Of a stretch of DNA of 34,436 nucleotides, positions 26,516-32,589 are shown piece after piece. Origin of the DNA: a virus; the IMG/VR virus record IMGVR_UViG_3300006750_000037, positions 1 to 34,436 of that record. One strand, written 5' to 3'. The translations under genes and the position numbers were made by a program. The notes below the pieces were generated by a model, which searched no databases, was not told the DNA's origin, and worked only from the letters and a program-made list of their open reading frames with translations. The first letter of the stretch is position 1; each line of letters begins with the position of its first letter.

Positions 26516-27106
26516 ATGAAACAAATTAAAACTTATACATCAATAGTTGGTGATAAAGATAGCCCAAGAGAAGATAAAATTAAATGTTTTACAGGTCAGG
26601 GGAAATTTAATGAGCCTGTAATGGAGGCTAAGATTTATAAGATTTTAGCACATCAATTTATAGAATCAGATTATTCTATCTGGATGGATGGCAATGTAGA
26701 ATTATTAATACCATCAGAGCAATTAGTAGAAGAATGGTTGGAAGATAAATATGATATGGCATTATGGAAACATCCTTACAGAAAATGCTTATATGATGAA
26801 GCAAATTTATGTAGGATATTATTTAGTAATCAAAAATTAATAATCGATGAACAGGTGAAATATTATAGAAATAAAAACTTTCCAGAATTATACGGTTTAA
26901 CAGAATGCTGCATAATAGTGAGAAAACATAGTAAGGAGATGGAAAGATTAAATAATGCCTGGTGGTCAGAAGTATGTAGATGGAGTTCTAGGGATCAGTT
27001 ATCTTTACCTTATGTATTATCTAAGTTTCCTGAATTAAAAGTTAAGTTGATAGATGGTAATGCTAGAGAACATCCTTACTTTAACTACACTAATCATTTA
27101 ATATAA
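26516..27106 (+). CDS. DUF616-like glycosyltransferase
   Basis: This 196-residue protein resembles the DUF616 (TOD1/MUCI70-type) glycosyltransferase-like family: SDYSIWMDGNVELLIPSEQL, then YDMALWKHPYRKCLYDEANL and a late SSRDQLSLPYVLSKF. In this family the D-G-N stretch and the HPYR and DQ motifs line the donor site. Its codons are markedly A/T-rich compared with ninG and erf, which suggests recent gain. It is the first gene of the cargo island. The acceptor is unknown; sugar addition to surface glycans or virion parts is plausible. Confidence 0.65.
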   Translation: MKQIKTYTSIVGDKDSPREDKIKCFTGQGKFNEPVMEAKIYKILAHQFIESDYSIWMDGNVELLIPSEQLVEEWLEDKYDMALWKHPYRKCLYDEANLCRILFSNQKLIIDEQVKYYRNKNFPELYGLTECCIIVRKHSKEMERLNNAWWSEVCRWSSRDQLSLPYVLSKFPELKVKLIDGNAREHPYFNYTNHLI

Positions 27107-27232: not shown

Positions 27233-28528
27233 ATGGGAAAGAAATATTTGGAGAAAAACGTTTATGACGCTTCTTTAGATCGAATAGAGTTCATATTCGA
27301 CAACTTCGAGAAAATATACTTATCATTCAGCGGAGGTAAAGATAGCGGAGTAATGCTGAACCTTGTTTTAGATTATATGCGTAAGAATGGCATAACTAAA
27401 AAAATAGGTTTAATGACCCTTGATAACGAGGCAAACTACAATCATTCATTAGATTTTATGCACTCAATAATCAGAAAGAATCTTGATTTACTTGATGTTT
27501 ATTGGTGTTGCTTACCTATTACTCTCCCATGTACAGTTAGCTCATACGCAACCGAATGGCAATGTTGGGGCGAACGTGATAAACATAGGTGGATAAGACC
27601 AATACCAACAGATGACTACATAGTAAATATTGATAATCATCAATTTGATTTCTTTTACGAAGACATGCACTATGATGAATTTTGGGACAAGTTTGGTGAT
27701 TGGTATGGTCAAGGTGAAAAAACTGCTTGTTTGATTGGTATTAGATGTGATGAGAGTCTAAATAGATTTAGGGCAATAATGAATGACCGTAAAGTAACAT
27801 TGAAAGGTCAAGCTTGGACTAAAAAAAATACTAAGATAGTTTACAATTGCTATCCGATATATGATTGGAGAACTGATGATGTATGGATTGCTAATGCTAA
27901 GTTTGAGTGGGATTATAATGAGTTATATGATATTTTCTGGAAGGCGGGGCTTAGTGTCGCGCAGATGAGGGTAGCGAGTCCGTTTATGAGTGAATCGAAA
28001 TCAAGTCTGAATTTATACAGGGTTATTGACCCTCATGTTTGGGCTACATTATGCGCCCGTGTACAAGGGGCTAACTTCATAGCAACCTACGGAAAACAAA
28101 TAAACTACAATAGCTTTAAGTTACCAGAAGGTCATACATGGAAAAGTTTCACTAAGTTTTTACTCGACACATTACCAAAAGAAGTGGGTGAAAATTTTAA
28201 GATACGCTTCATTCAATCTATAAAATATTGGTGGAGAGTGGGGCGTGGACTTGCTGAAGAAACAATTGAAGACCTTAGAAAGAATAATATTCCATTTGTT
28301 TTAGGGGATAAAACAAGGCATGGGAATAAAGATAAGACGTGTGTAAGAATGCTGCCACCTGACCATTTAGACATGCTTAGAATACATGCTTCAGAAGTTA
28401 CAAGTTGGAAAAGGTTTGCTTTAACGATATTAAAGAATGACCACACCTGTAAATATATGGGTCTTGCTCCAACACAAGGTCAAGCAAAAAGACAAAGAGA
28501 AATAATGGAAAAATATAAGAACGTATGA
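27233..28528 (+). CDS. IbrA-like PAPS reductase-family protein (DUF3440-like)
   Basis: This 431-residue protein has the PP-loop SFSGGKDSGVM (SGGKDS at residues 33-38) of adenylate-forming ATP pyrophosphatases of the PAPS reductase/DndC type. It continues with a DUF3440-like body: LMTLDNEANYNHS, ACLIGIRCDESLNRFRAI, YPIYDWRTDDVWIANAKF and VAQMRVASPF, and ends with VTSWKRFALTILKNDHTCKY. IbrA of E. coli is of this kind and works with IbrB, a ParB-like partner; such a partner is at 29544. Biochemical function in phages is not settled; nucleotide or DNA sulfur chemistry and gene regulation are both proposed for relatives. Low G+C marks it as cargo. Confidence 0.8.
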   Translation: MGKKYLEKNVYDASLDRIEFIFDNFEKIYLSFSGGKDSGVMLNLVLDYMRKNGITKKIGLMTLDNEANYNHSLDFMHSIIRKNLDLLDVYWCCLPITLPCTVSSYATEWQCWGERDKHRWIRPIPTDDYIVNIDNHQFDFFYEDMHYDEFWDKFGDWYGQGEKTACLIGIRCDESLNRFRAIMNDRKVTLKGQAWTKKNTKIVYNCYPIYDWRTDDVWIANAKFEWDYNELYDIFWKAGLSVAQMRVASPFMSESKSSLNLYRVIDPHVWATLCARVQGANFIATYGKQINYNSFKLPEGHTWKSFTKFLLDTLPKEVGENFKIRFIQSIKYWWRVGRGLAEETIEDLRKNNIPFVLGDKTRHGNKDKTCVRMLPPDHLDMLRIHASEVTSWKRFALTILKNDHTCKYMGLAPTQGQAKRQREIMEKYKNV

Positions 28529-28941
28529 AAGTTATAAGAACAAAAAGTCTTATCGGTACAAAAAGAGACATTCAAGGAAAGGGGTTTTCAAGTCTTAGAA
28601 TACTACTCGAAAGAGATAGAATGGGGTTTAGTCTTCATAAGACTATAATACCAAAGGGAGACAAAGAACATTGGCATTATAAACATCATTTAGAGGCGTG
28701 TTATTGTATTAGTGGTATGGGTGTTTTAACCAACCTGGAAACAAACGAAGAATTTAATATTACTCCAGATACAACATACGTGCTTGATAATCATGATGAC
28801 CATACTTTTCAGGCTTTAGATGATGTAGTGTTGCTTTCTATTTTCAATCCACCAGTAGTAGGTAATGAAATACATATGGATGATGGGTCATATATACCTG
28901 CAAACGAAGAAAGTGAAATTACTAACAACCATTGGGAATGA
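28525..28941 (+). CDS. Ectoine synthase-like cupin (EctC-like)
   Basis: This 138-residue protein closely follows the L-ectoine synthase pattern: RDIQGKGFSSLRILLERDRM, GFSLHKTIIPKGDKEHW, then HYKHHLEACYCISGMG, TYVLDNHDDHTF and SIFNPPVVGNEIHMDDGSY. Glu57, Tyr85 and His93 line up with the Glu/Tyr/His triad that holds the iron in EctC, so the metal site looks intact. EctC closes N-gamma-acetyl-diaminobutyrate to ectoine. No EctA or EctB is here, so substrate would have to come from the host, or the enzyme works on something else. It is joined to the IbrA-like gene (ATGA) and to the next gene. Confidence 0.8.
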   Translation: MKVIRTKSLIGTKRDIQGKGFSSLRILLERDRMGFSLHKTIIPKGDKEHWHYKHHLEACYCISGMGVLTNLETNEEFNITPDTTYVLDNHDDHTFQALDDVVLLSIFNPPVVGNEIHMDDGSYIPANEESEITNNHWE

Positions 28942-29360
28942 GAGTTTATAAACCCTATTGGGAATGGGAAGATTTTAATAACGGAATGTGGAGGAAGGTG
29001 AATAAAAAAGAAGAGCTTATTTTTTTAGAAAAAGCAATAATATTTACAGGTGACCATTTAAGATATGGTGAAGCAATGAAAGAGGTGATCGACAAATGGA
29101 CAAACACGATGCTTAATACCCTAACAAATTCAAGCGTTAATAAACGCGCTTTCTTAGGTCATTGCGCATGTTCGTTAGCATTTAATTGCCCTGAATACAT
29201 CACGAGAATGGCATGGAAGGAATTAACAAATATGCAGCGAGAATTAGCAGATGAAGTAGCACAACAACATATTGATAATTGGACAAATGAATATACATCT
29301 AACAGTACGGGATTACATAAAAACTTGGGAAAACAGATGTTACTACAATGGGGTTCCTGA
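28938..29360 (+). CDS. Conserved phage protein, 140 residues
   Basis: ATG 28938 (ATGA overlap with the cupin stop) is preferred over TTG 28932. The protein starts MRVYKPYWEWEDFNNGMWRK and continues with LEKAIIFTGDHLRYGEAM, KWTNTMLNTLTNSSVNKRAF, LGHCACSLAFNCPEY and MAWKELTNMQRELADEVA. This arrangement recurs in phage genomes, often beside IbrA/IbrB-type genes, without known role. The H and C residues in LGHCACSLAF could bind metal or form an active site. It overlaps the following ORF by 74 bases. Confidence 0.65.
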   Translation: MRVYKPYWEWEDFNNGMWRKVNKKEELIFLEKAIIFTGDHLRYGEAMKEVIDKWTNTMLNTLTNSSVNKRAFLGHCACSLAFNCPEYITRMAWKELTNMQRELADEVAQQHIDNWTNEYTSNSTGLHKNLGKQMLLQWGS

Positions 29361-29547
29361 TGAAGTACCTATTGAGATACATAAGAAAGTACCAAGCTAT
29401 AAGCGTATTGCATTAGCAATATTAAATAACGACCTAACGTTTAAAAGTTTAGGATATGAGCCGAACGTTTCAAAATATTACGTAATATTAAAACGCATAG
29501 AATTGAAAGAGAAACTAAGAACAAATCAATTAAAACTAAAATTATGA
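29287..29547 (+). CDS. Detached IbrA/DUF3440-type C-terminal module
   Basis: From ATG 29287 the protein has 86 residues. It reads YIKTWENRCYYNGVPDEVPI, then KVPSYKRIALAILNNDLTFK and SLGYEP. This is the end of DUF3440-type proteins, and it resembles the end of the IbrA-like protein upstream (VTSWKRFALTILKNDHTCKY, then MGLAPTQ). Here it stands alone without a PP-loop. It may be a remnant of a second IbrA gene or a subunit acting in trans. It starts inside the previous gene (a TTG at 29272 is an alternative) and ends in an ATGA overlap with the IbrB-like gene. Confidence 0.6.
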   Translation: MNIHLTVRDYIKTWENRCYYNGVPDEVPIEIHKKVPSYKRIALAILNNDLTFKSLGYEPNVSKYYVILKRIELKEKLRTNQLKLKL

Positions 29548-30077
29548 GCGAATACAAATCTCCAGTTTACAACGTCATTCCTGTTCCGATCGACAAGATA
29601 ACAGCTAACGATTACAACCCAAATGCCGTAGCACCTCCTGAAATGGCATTACTTGAAACATCTATTTGGGAGGATGGGTACACTCAACCAGTAGTTACGG
29701 TTTACGATGAAGAAAATGACATGTATGTCGTTGTTGATGGATTCCATAGATTCTTAACTCTGAAGAATAGTCAGCGCATAATTGACCGTGAAAAAGGCTT
29801 CTTACCATGTGTGGTGCTTGATAAGAGTATTTCAGATAGAATGGCATCGACCATACGCCACAATAGAGCAAGAGGGTCTCATAATATAGAATTAATGAGT
29901 ACGATAGTTTCAGAGCTTGTAGAAATGGGAAAGGGTGATGCTTGGATATGTAAGCATATAGGAATGTCAAAAGATGAATTACTTAGAATGAAACAGGTTA
30001 CTGGTTTAGCATCATTATTTCTTAATAAGGATTTTTCTAATAGTTGGGACGCTGAAAACGAAATGCATAATGCATAA
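29544..30077 (+). CDS. IbrB-like ParB/sulfiredoxin-fold protein
   Basis: This 177-residue protein has the ParB N-terminal fold: VIPVPIDKITANDYNPN (residues 11-27), a helix (EMALLETSIWEDGYTQPVV) and VVVDGFHRFL (DGFHR at 65-69), which forms the nucleotide- or phosphate-binding site. After that come TIRHNRARGSHNIELMSTIV and a helical C terminus (KHIGMSKDELLRMKQVTGLA), as in IbrB. IbrA and IbrB act as a pair, so this protein is the probable partner of the gene at 27233. It overlaps the nuclease gene by 8 bases. Confidence 0.8.
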   Translation: MSEYKSPVYNVIPVPIDKITANDYNPNAVAPPEMALLETSIWEDGYTQPVVTVYDEENDMYVVVDGFHRFLTLKNSQRIIDREKGFLPCVVLDKSISDRMASTIRHNRARGSHNIELMSTIVSELVEMGKGDAWICKHIGMSKDELLRMKQVTGLASLFLNKDFSNSWDAENEMHNA

Positions 30078-31491: not shown

Positions 31492-31939
31492 ACAAATCAA
31501 TGAGTTTGTTAACAAGAAGTTTCACATGGCAAGCCCTGAGATAATAGAGGCTTTTGAAGCTGCTGCTGCACGGGAATTGAACATCGGTAATAAACCCGTA
31601 GAGCCTGACACCTTTGGTCAGTATCTAAGCGTTGCTATCTTTGGTAAGATACTTTCAGCGTTCAGAGACTTTAAGAAACAAGAGCCTAAAGCGTACATTC
31701 AGCATTATGGCAGCGAAATAGAACGACCTCACAACCCTATAACACCTTTGGAAGCGTGGGAGTTGGTCGAGAAGTGGTACAAGGAGGATGAAAAGTTTGC
31801 TTTCATTGCTCCATACTTGGGTGCTTATGATTACCTTGTATCGACAAAGAAGATAAAACCCGTTGAGAATCCGAAGAAAGGATTTGCGGCTAATCAATCA
31901 AGCCCCCAACGTAGGGCGGTAGAAAGTTATCTAAAATGA
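31400..31939 (+). CDS. Replication-associated protein, 179 residues
   Basis: The protein starts MYDLRATIASLPSLVGCQPF and has ASPEIIEAFEAAAARELNIG, then VEPDTFGQYLSVAIFGKILS and AYDYLVSTKKIKPV. I recognise the general pattern as a gene that follows the replication initiator in Bacteroidota phages, possibly a helicase loader, but no catalytic motif is seen. The first 30 codons overlap the end of the replisome organiser in a different frame. It is joined by ATGA to the methyltransferase gene. Confidence 0.6.
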   Translation: MYDLRATIASLPSLVGCQPFPKSEQGKLLIEQINEFVNKKFHMASPEIIEAFEAAAARELNIGNKPVEPDTFGQYLSVAIFGKILSAFRDFKKQEPKAYIQHYGSEIERPHNPITPLEAWELVEKWYKEDEKFAFIAPYLGAYDYLVSTKKIKPVENPKKGFAANQSSPQRRAVESYLK

Positions 31940-32589
31940 AGATACTTAATCTATACGCCTGTCTTGGAGGCAACAGATACAAGTGGGATGAGGTGGCAAA
32001 AGTTGATGTTACAGCTGTTGAATTAGACCCTGAAGCAGCTAGATTATATCAAGAGCGTTTTCCTAATGACAAAGTAATAGTGGCTGATGCACACCAGTAT
32101 TTATTAGATCATTATCAAGAATTTGATTTTATCTGGTCTAGCCCACCTTGTCCTACACATAGCCGTTTAATAGCGGCTCAAAAAAATAAATGGGTAATGA
32201 GTTACCCAGATATGAAGTTATATCAAGAAGTTATTTTTTTAGACAATTTTTTTAACGGTAAGTATTGTGTTGAAAATGTTATACCATACTATGAGCCATT
32301 GATAACAGCAAAAAAAAGGCACAGGCATTTATACTGGACTAATTTCAATTTACCAAATATATTAACTAAAAGAAAAGTATTAATAGGTGAATCTAAAAGA
32401 GGTAAAAAAGCAGAAGAAGTTAAAAACTTATGCGAATTTCATGATTATGACTTTAATAAATACAAAGGAAAGCAATCCAAAACAAAAATAGCAAGAAACT
32501 TAGTAGACTACGAAGCAGGGCGAACCATCCTTGAAACCGCTTTAGGCATCATAAGAAAATCAAACACATCACAGACAGAATTATTTTAA
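31936..32589 (+). CDS. DNA cytosine-5 methyltransferase, compact
   Basis: This 217-residue protein methylates cytosine in DNA using S-adenosylmethionine. It carries motif I (ILNLYACLGGNRYKW), the acidic ribose-binding residue in TAVELDPEAARLY, motif IV with the catalytic cysteine (WSSPPCPTHSR, Cys72), motif VI (YCVENVIPYY, Glu113) and motif X (NLVDYEAGRTILETAL). It is much shorter than usual (300-400 residues), so the target-recognition region is small. No restriction partner is visible, so it is an orphan enzyme, probably for protection from host nucleases. The middle of the gene is A/T-rich. Confidence 0.85.
   Translation: MKILNLYACLGGNRYKWDEVAKVDVTAVELDPEAARLYQERFPNDKVIVADAHQYLLDHYQEFDFIWSSPPCPTHSRLIAAQKNKWVMSYPDMKLYQEVIFLDNFFNGKYCVENVIPYYEPLITAKKRHRHLYWTNFNLPNILTKRKVLIGESKRGKKAEEVKNLCEFHDYDFNKYKGKQSKTKIARNLVDYEAGRTILETALGIIRKSNTSQTELF

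Follow-up and report, generated by a model that had tools for sequence, protein, structure and literature searches.

The locus raises the question of what a phage does with a gene resembling that of ectoine synthase, and specifically whether the encoded enzyme relieves osmotic stress in the infected host or has been recruited to a different cyclisation. Both possibilities were raised in an earlier note on this DNA. The stretch analysed here, hereafter the window, comprises 34,436 nucleotides (IMG/VR record IMGVR_UViG_3300006750_000037) and was assigned to a tailed phage because terminase, portal and Erf-like genes are present. The cupin gene lies in a group of five:

27233..28528, + strand: IbrA, 431 aa, a DUF3440/PAPS-reductase-like PP-loop ATPase (from Pfam, phrog_2302 and an AF2 model)
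28525..28941, + strand: EctC-family cupin, 138 aa, with Phe21 where ectoine synthases have Trp21
28938..29360, + strand: orf5, an all-helical conserved cassette member, likely start ATG at 28938
29272..29547, + strand: orf6, small, related to the C-terminal part of DUF3440, exact start uncertain
29544..30077, + strand: IbrB, 177 aa, a ParB-fold protein (phrog_2159, 6.6e-76)

Family identity and operon context of the window EctC

The window cupin matched the Pfam model Ectoine_synth (PF06339) with 150.7 bits (cut-off 27, E = 3.1e-44), the match spanning residues 1-125 against a model of 127 positions, and NCBIfam PRK13290 with 151.1 bits (cut-off 128). When the PDB was searched, the window protein retrieved L-ectoine synthases only (best E = 6e-26), and a profile of 72 phage relatives retrieved the same four L-ectoine synthases with E-values of about 1e-36 to 4e-36. 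The likeness to L-ectoine synthase over nearly the whole length, claimed in the earlier note, is thus borne out above both curated cut-offs, and by these searches the gene is a full-length EctC-family cupin and a genuine relative of ectoine synthase. The proposed metal-binding triad was also found in place, with Glu57, Tyr85 and His93 at those positions in the window protein; across the 72 relatives (window numbering) Glu57 and Tyr85 are invariant and His93 nearly so. The note had held that a clear placement in another cupin family would undo its reading; the sequence searches gave ectoine synthase instead, the general Cupin_2 model scoring only 25 bits. A chance match or a spurious open reading frame at 28525-28941 was rejected on the strength of the profile scores and the conservation.

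The start ATG of the EctC gene overlaps the stop codon of IbrA (ATGA, 28525-28528), and its own stop codon overlaps the start of orf5 (ATGA, 28938-28941). As read from these overlaps, translation of the EctC gene is coupled to that of IbrA before it and of orf5 after it, and the operon is real. Just 5' of IbrA (26516-27106) the window also encodes a TOD1/MUCI70-type glycosyltransferase (PF04765, 4e-23), which was not found beside other cassettes. At 31936-32589 the window encodes a short protein resembling C5-cytosine methylases; it has an SPPC motif and aligns with the N-terminal part of the family only. Comparable short proteins lie near a few other cassettes (G028, L045).

The five-gene cassette and its distribution

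Related viral loci were collected in scans with exact peptide patterns, whose E-values are relative to the candidates of each scan and which overlap in contigs. Among the nearest 80 viral loci of the EctC scan (the best 80 were kept, and distant members may behave differently), IbrA was present in 79, IbrB in 79, orf5 in 73 and all five genes (IbrA, EctC, IbrB, orf5 and orf6) in 73; the loci short of five genes appear to be mostly short contigs. EctC was in turn encoded in all of the nearest 80 loci of an IbrA scan. A second EctC scan with a divergent query yielded 53 newly fetched loci, some of which overlap contigs seen in the earlier scans, and all 53 carry the five genes, orf5 included. 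The survey of other phages that the earlier note had proposed therefore gives a plain answer: the pairing of the cupin with IbrA and IbrB recurs in three scans, and the linkage is close to absolute over all viral loci fetched.

Gene order is permuted among the 96 non-redundant loci. IbrA-EctC-IbrB-orf5-orf6 was found in 44 and the order of the window, IbrA-EctC-orf5-orf6-IbrB, in seven, while EctC is fused to IbrB in 19, mycobacteriophage Gaia being among the fused cases. There was no sixth constant gene, and no other neighbour family exceeded 14 of the 96 loci, the commonest being an ERF-like annealing protein (14/96, named by eye from sequence); the flanks are largely made up of replication and recombination genes. 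Varying order, fusion and near-constant membership together point to a functional unit, and on the sequence evidence EctC is an obligate member of a five-gene cassette specific to viruses.

Fusion of orf5 to orf6 was found in two of the 96 loci. The two genes overlap out of frame by up to ~90 bases (29272-29360 in the window) and do so in most related cassettes; since they form one open reading frame in L051 and L082, a frameshift or internal initiation may play a part. Small open reading frames of the pattern IYKITYPNGKIYIGQD or similar are inserted between cassette genes in several loci (L078 2532-2852, L144 6278-6595, L121 1391-1666, L015 4890-5264 and L012 4510-5262). These are GIY-YIG-like by eye and perhaps encode homing endonucleases. 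In one cassette a DGQHR-domain protein of the DndB/DpdB kind lies between IbrA and EctC (L091 3874-4938), scoring 25 bits against TIGR03187, below the cut-off.

When 84,980 bacterial and archaeal species were scanned, each represented by one genome, 56 EctC relatives came up. The cassette accompanied only one of these, on a 6.7 kb contig of a Saprospiraceae assembly that is possibly a misbinned phage fragment, and most of the others lay in ectABC operons or were Ruegeria orphans. In a tree of 153 EctCs, built from few columns and with modest support, a single branch separates the phage proteins from the rest. An alignment search of viral contigs with canonical, ectABC-type EctC found no relative. 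Judging from these scans and the tree, the EctC branch is virus-specific. A faecal record named 'Bacteriophage sp.' (MT835761) was rejected as a cassette member and excluded from the phage EctC set: its EctC keeps Trp21, EctB lies upstream and the cassette is missing, and it looks like a piece of a bacterial-type ect operon.

Active site, partner proteins and the proposed pathway

For a comparison of 97 cassette EctCs, residues were numbered as in P. lautus EctC (PMC6344544), in which Tyr84, His92 and Phe106 correspond to Tyr85, His93 and Phe107 of the window. Glu57 is kept in 96 of the 97, Tyr84 in all and His92 in 96; overall, Ser23, Arg25, Thr40, Tyr52, Glu57, Tyr84, His92 and Phe106 are kept in 95-97 of them. 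Trp21, on the other hand, is found in none of the 97, as against 40 of 41 ectABC enzymes and 13 of 15 orphans. Most cassette EctCs have Phe (51) or Gly (40) at this position, two before Ser23. Cys59 occurs in 96 of the 97 and in 12 of the 15 sampled orphans; ectABC enzymes have Val there (41/41). Trp50, His51 and Cys59 are common to phage EctCs, and position 38 varies across the set. In ectoine synthase Trp21 touches the carbon chain of the substrate, is conserved across 437 EctCs of ect clusters and, somewhat shifted, 145 orphan ones, and can be changed to Ala with retention of 9.7% activity (PMC6344544). This contact and the residual activity of the W21A enzyme make a changed or larger substrate plausible; replacement of Trp21 need not abolish ectoine synthesis by the phage EctCs. 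Phe at position 21 was also seen in a bacterial EctC beside EctA and EctB homologues, that of Exilibacterium tricleocarpae (L171), which is clustered with EctA/EctB-like and other biosynthetic genes and possibly belongs to an ectoine-like natural product pathway.

The window IbrA matched Pfam DUF3440 (1.9e-57), PAPS_reduct (2.3e-9) and phrog_2302 (1e-110). Its SGGKDS motif is intact and invariant in 46 relatives, which argues for IbrA as an ATP pyrophosphatase. The AF2 model (mean pLDDT 80) resembles PP-loop enzymes, namely CysH/PAPS reductases, FAD synthase, CysD/ATP sulfurylase and TilS; two phage-record loci were left out of the alignments for the structure models, which are predictions. 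An ordinary PAPS reductase was considered for IbrA, and the closest matches of the predicted structure include true PAPS reductases; the SGGKDS motif counts against this assignment and the model fits both kinds, leaving the choice unsettled. DndC of Dnd phosphorothioation was rejected, the scores being 21.5 bits for TIGR03183 (cut-off 290.4) and only 27 bits for the PADLOC DndC model. In IbrB, the motifs VDGFHR and IRHNRARG are kept in nearly all of 100 sequences, and members of the ParB fold bind CTP, ATP or GTP (PMC12704722). The window thus has a DUF3440 PP-loop IbrA near a ParB-fold IbrB, as an IbrA/IbrB locus should, with EctC, orf5 and orf6 inserted between them. The orf5 product was modelled as a confident all-helical protein (pLDDT 92.9), for which a fold search gave no PDB match, no Pfam family and one unnamed viral-protein match. 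Lastly, orf6 is conserved in cassette relatives and matched PF11922 (1.1e-7, positions 131-176).

As the earlier note had observed, neither EctA nor EctB was found when searched for in the window; nor was EctB found in 46 other cassette phage records, or EctA on 47 phage records, which may be fragments. An EctD-type gene, by contrast, lies between IbrA and EctC in three of the 96 loci (L043, L049 and L111). EctD was the best PDB match of the encoded proteins (9e-77 for L043, 4e-60 for L111), and they keep the signature WHSDFETWHxxDGMPRMR. Six residues contact 5-hydroxyectoine in S. alaskensis EctD (PMC6890836); five of these, Gln127, His144, Thr149, Trp150 and Arg280, are retained in the phage proteins, and the sixth, at the Leu284 position, is another hydrophobic residue. 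Their scores of 285, 173 and 189 bits do not reach the TIGR02408 equivalog cut-off of 336.5 bits. EctD patterns run against 2.9 million viral contigs picked out these three loci and no others, and a search of 50,697 phage records with the L111 protein as query found none. The EctCs of the three cassettes do not group together in the phage EctC tree. The simplest inference from an EctD inside the cassette is that the EctC of those phages makes something with an ectoine-like ring. Between the EctD and EctC genes of L111 there is one whose product resembles O-methyltransferases (PDB 3ssm, 3e-27).

Given a branch confined to viruses and four constant partner genes, EctC probably performs one step of a phage modification pathway not yet described, rather than protecting against salt. 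We propose, with a probability of roughly 0.45 for the scheme as a whole, that EctC is a cyclase within the cassette and that its ring chemistry is driven by IbrA and IbrB, most likely on nucleic acid. IbrA, as a PP-loop adenylating enzyme, and IbrB, as a ParB-fold NTP-binding protein, would activate and attach an amino-acid-like group. EctC would then dehydrate this group to form a ring of the ectoine type (tetrahydropyrimidine), which EctD would hydroxylate in a few phages. The target would most likely be phage DNA or a nucleotide, yielding a hypermodification that shields this target from host nucleases. The ring as the EctC product is put forward with moderate confidence. The target step is the weakest link and, taken by itself, is held more tentatively than the scheme as a whole; confidence in DNA as the target is low. 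Bolder still, and correspondingly more doubtful, is the full proposal of an ectoine-type cyclic amidine, in some phages hydroxylated and perhaps also bearing an O-methyl group, that IbrA/IbrB, EctC and EctD would successively install on phage DNA or nucleotides. The suggestion in the earlier note that the cupin was recruited for a different cyclisation, perhaps on a modified nucleotide or amino acid, hence survives as a better reading than osmoprotection, supported by the occurrence of EctD only inside the cassette, while the product itself is one that we infer.

Asparagine synthetase is related to the PP-loop enzymes. A phage AMP-forming ligase of the asparagine-synthetase type, CmoY, joins glycine to carboxymethylcytosine in DNA, and its contig often encodes a ParBc protein as well (PMC12783734). 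Among the cassette phages, one lineage encodes CmoA-like and C5-methylase proteins ~2.3 kb upstream of IbrA, and there orf6 is immediately followed by thymidylate synthase; CmoA-like genes were present in two of 31 records, both of which share the same 11.3 kb stretch. This precedent, the folds of IbrA and IbrB and the CmoA-like lineage together favour modification of a nucleic acid or nucleotide, with EctC performing ring closure. Counting against the scheme are the presence of EctD in just three of 96 loci, the inconstancy of known DNA-modifying neighbours, the activity left to ectoine synthase without Trp21 and the likeness of the IbrA model to true PAPS reductases.

A different target is the strongest alternative, although we regard it as rather unlikely: the cassette could make a diffusible ectoine-like molecule, or modify a host protein or tRNA, and thereby disarm host defence without acting on DNA. 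Among the structures that the IbrA model resembles are PP-loop enzymes of tRNA modification (TilS, NcsA and TtuA), consistent with a TilS/TtcA-like role, and the phage EctDs keep residues that contact a small free ligand. Recognised DNA-modification genes are moreover absent from most cassette phages; a C5-methylase scored above the cut-off in nine of the 31 records, and no such gene is a constant neighbour. The replication and recombination genes around the cassette and its ParB-fold partner lean instead towards nucleic acid.

That the phage enzyme acts as an auxiliary metabolic function, making free ectoine from host N-gamma-acetyl-diaminobutyrate against osmotic stress in the infected cell, is improbable. 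In its favour, all catalytic residues other than Trp21 are kept, as are the hydroxyectoine-contact residues of the EctDs in three cassettes. M. smegmatis has ect genes, and some hosts could supply the precursor. A viral ectoine synthase has been read in this way in an estuarine virome (PMC13079714). Against it stand the near-constant linkage to IbrA, IbrB, orf5 and orf6, the fusion to IbrB and the loss of Trp21 in every cassette EctC. An osmoprotective gene should have its kin in host ect operons and a pathway that can be completed; here the branch is virus-specific, EctA and EctB are on none of the phage records examined, and they were not found above the cut-off in the Saprospiraceae assembly, the lone bacterial one with the cassette. 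Carriage of a canonical ect operon by phages was likewise rejected, as the alignment search with ectABC-type EctC gave no viral relative. The role in host osmotic stress considered in the earlier note is accordingly not upheld.

Least probable is a non-catalytic or regulatory cupin serving as a sensor subunit, IbrA and IbrB being, as their annotation has it, co-activators of prophage genes. That annotation, the EctC-IbrB fusions and the loss of Trp21 would suit it, but bacterial genomes, and with them prophages, are almost free of the cassette, and the near-invariance of the metal ligands and other active-site residues in 97 sequences, together with the recruitment of EctD, points to catalysis by EctC.

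Significance and comparison with known systems

The searchable literature, which did not extend to subscription papers and preprints, yielded no account of the cassette, of its restriction to viruses or of its linkage to EctD; the parts belong to known families, and the fusion had been noted by one annotator. The cassette joins two open questions, the roles of solitary EctC proteins and of phage IbrA/IbrB loci. If the proposed pathway is correct, ring-forming amino-acid chemistry would take place on nucleic acid and IbrA/IbrB loci would gain a function. Since every complete viral locus of the EctC branch that we examined is a cassette without EctA and EctB, caution is called for before a viral 'ectoine synthase' is credited with osmoprotection in the way that the 2026 virome paper does (PMC13079714).

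Compared with ectoine synthases (PF06339; P. lautus 5ONM/5ONN, S. alaskensis 5BXX), the window EctC shares the whole-length match and the metal triad and keeps Ser23, Arg25, Thr40, Tyr52 and Phe107. It differs in having Phe21 for Trp21, in lacking EctA and EctB and in its linkage to IbrA/IbrB; Trp50, His51 and Cys59 are typical of the phage branch and unlike ectoine synthases. Bacterial orphan EctCs (PMC5924519, PMC6344544) are likewise without ectAB and mostly have Cys59, as in the phage branch, but they mostly keep Trp21, have no IbrA/IbrB adjoining and are separate in the tree. The Ruegeria orphans (L157-L174, L199) are an example, having Cys59 and Trp21 and unrelated metabolic genes adjoining.

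The CmoA/CmoX/CmoY hypermodification system (PMC12783734) resembles the cassette in combining an AMP-forming ligase with ParBc in phages and in placing an amino acid on DNA; CmoY is of the asparagine-synthetase type, unlike IbrA, and the system is without EctC. Streptococcal, lactobacillus and fusobacterial phages have a homologous IbrA beside a homologous IbrB, annotated as co-activators of prophage gene expression, and the window IbrA is about 40-43% identical to the streptococcal and lactobacillus proteins. EctC and a recognisable orf5 are missing from these pairs, while the locus of Pseudomonas phage Amjad_SA has orf5 and lacks EctC. Since other phage IbrA/IbrB pairs do without it, EctC marks one subtype of these loci, and we class the window locus as a variant IbrA/IbrB locus rather than a bona fide ectoine synthase. 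Mycobacterium phage Gaia (gp103-gp104, with EctC and IbrB fused) and Pseudoalteromonas phage XCL1123 carry the same five-gene set, known from annotation only, as an 'ectoine synthase/ParB multidomain protein' beside a 'PAPS reductase', with an EctC 46% identical to that of the window. Phages of distant hosts thus share the cassette. Two of them are in culture, Gaia with M. smegmatis as host and XCL1123 with Pseudoalteromonas, which makes the cassette chemistry directly accessible to mass spectrometry.
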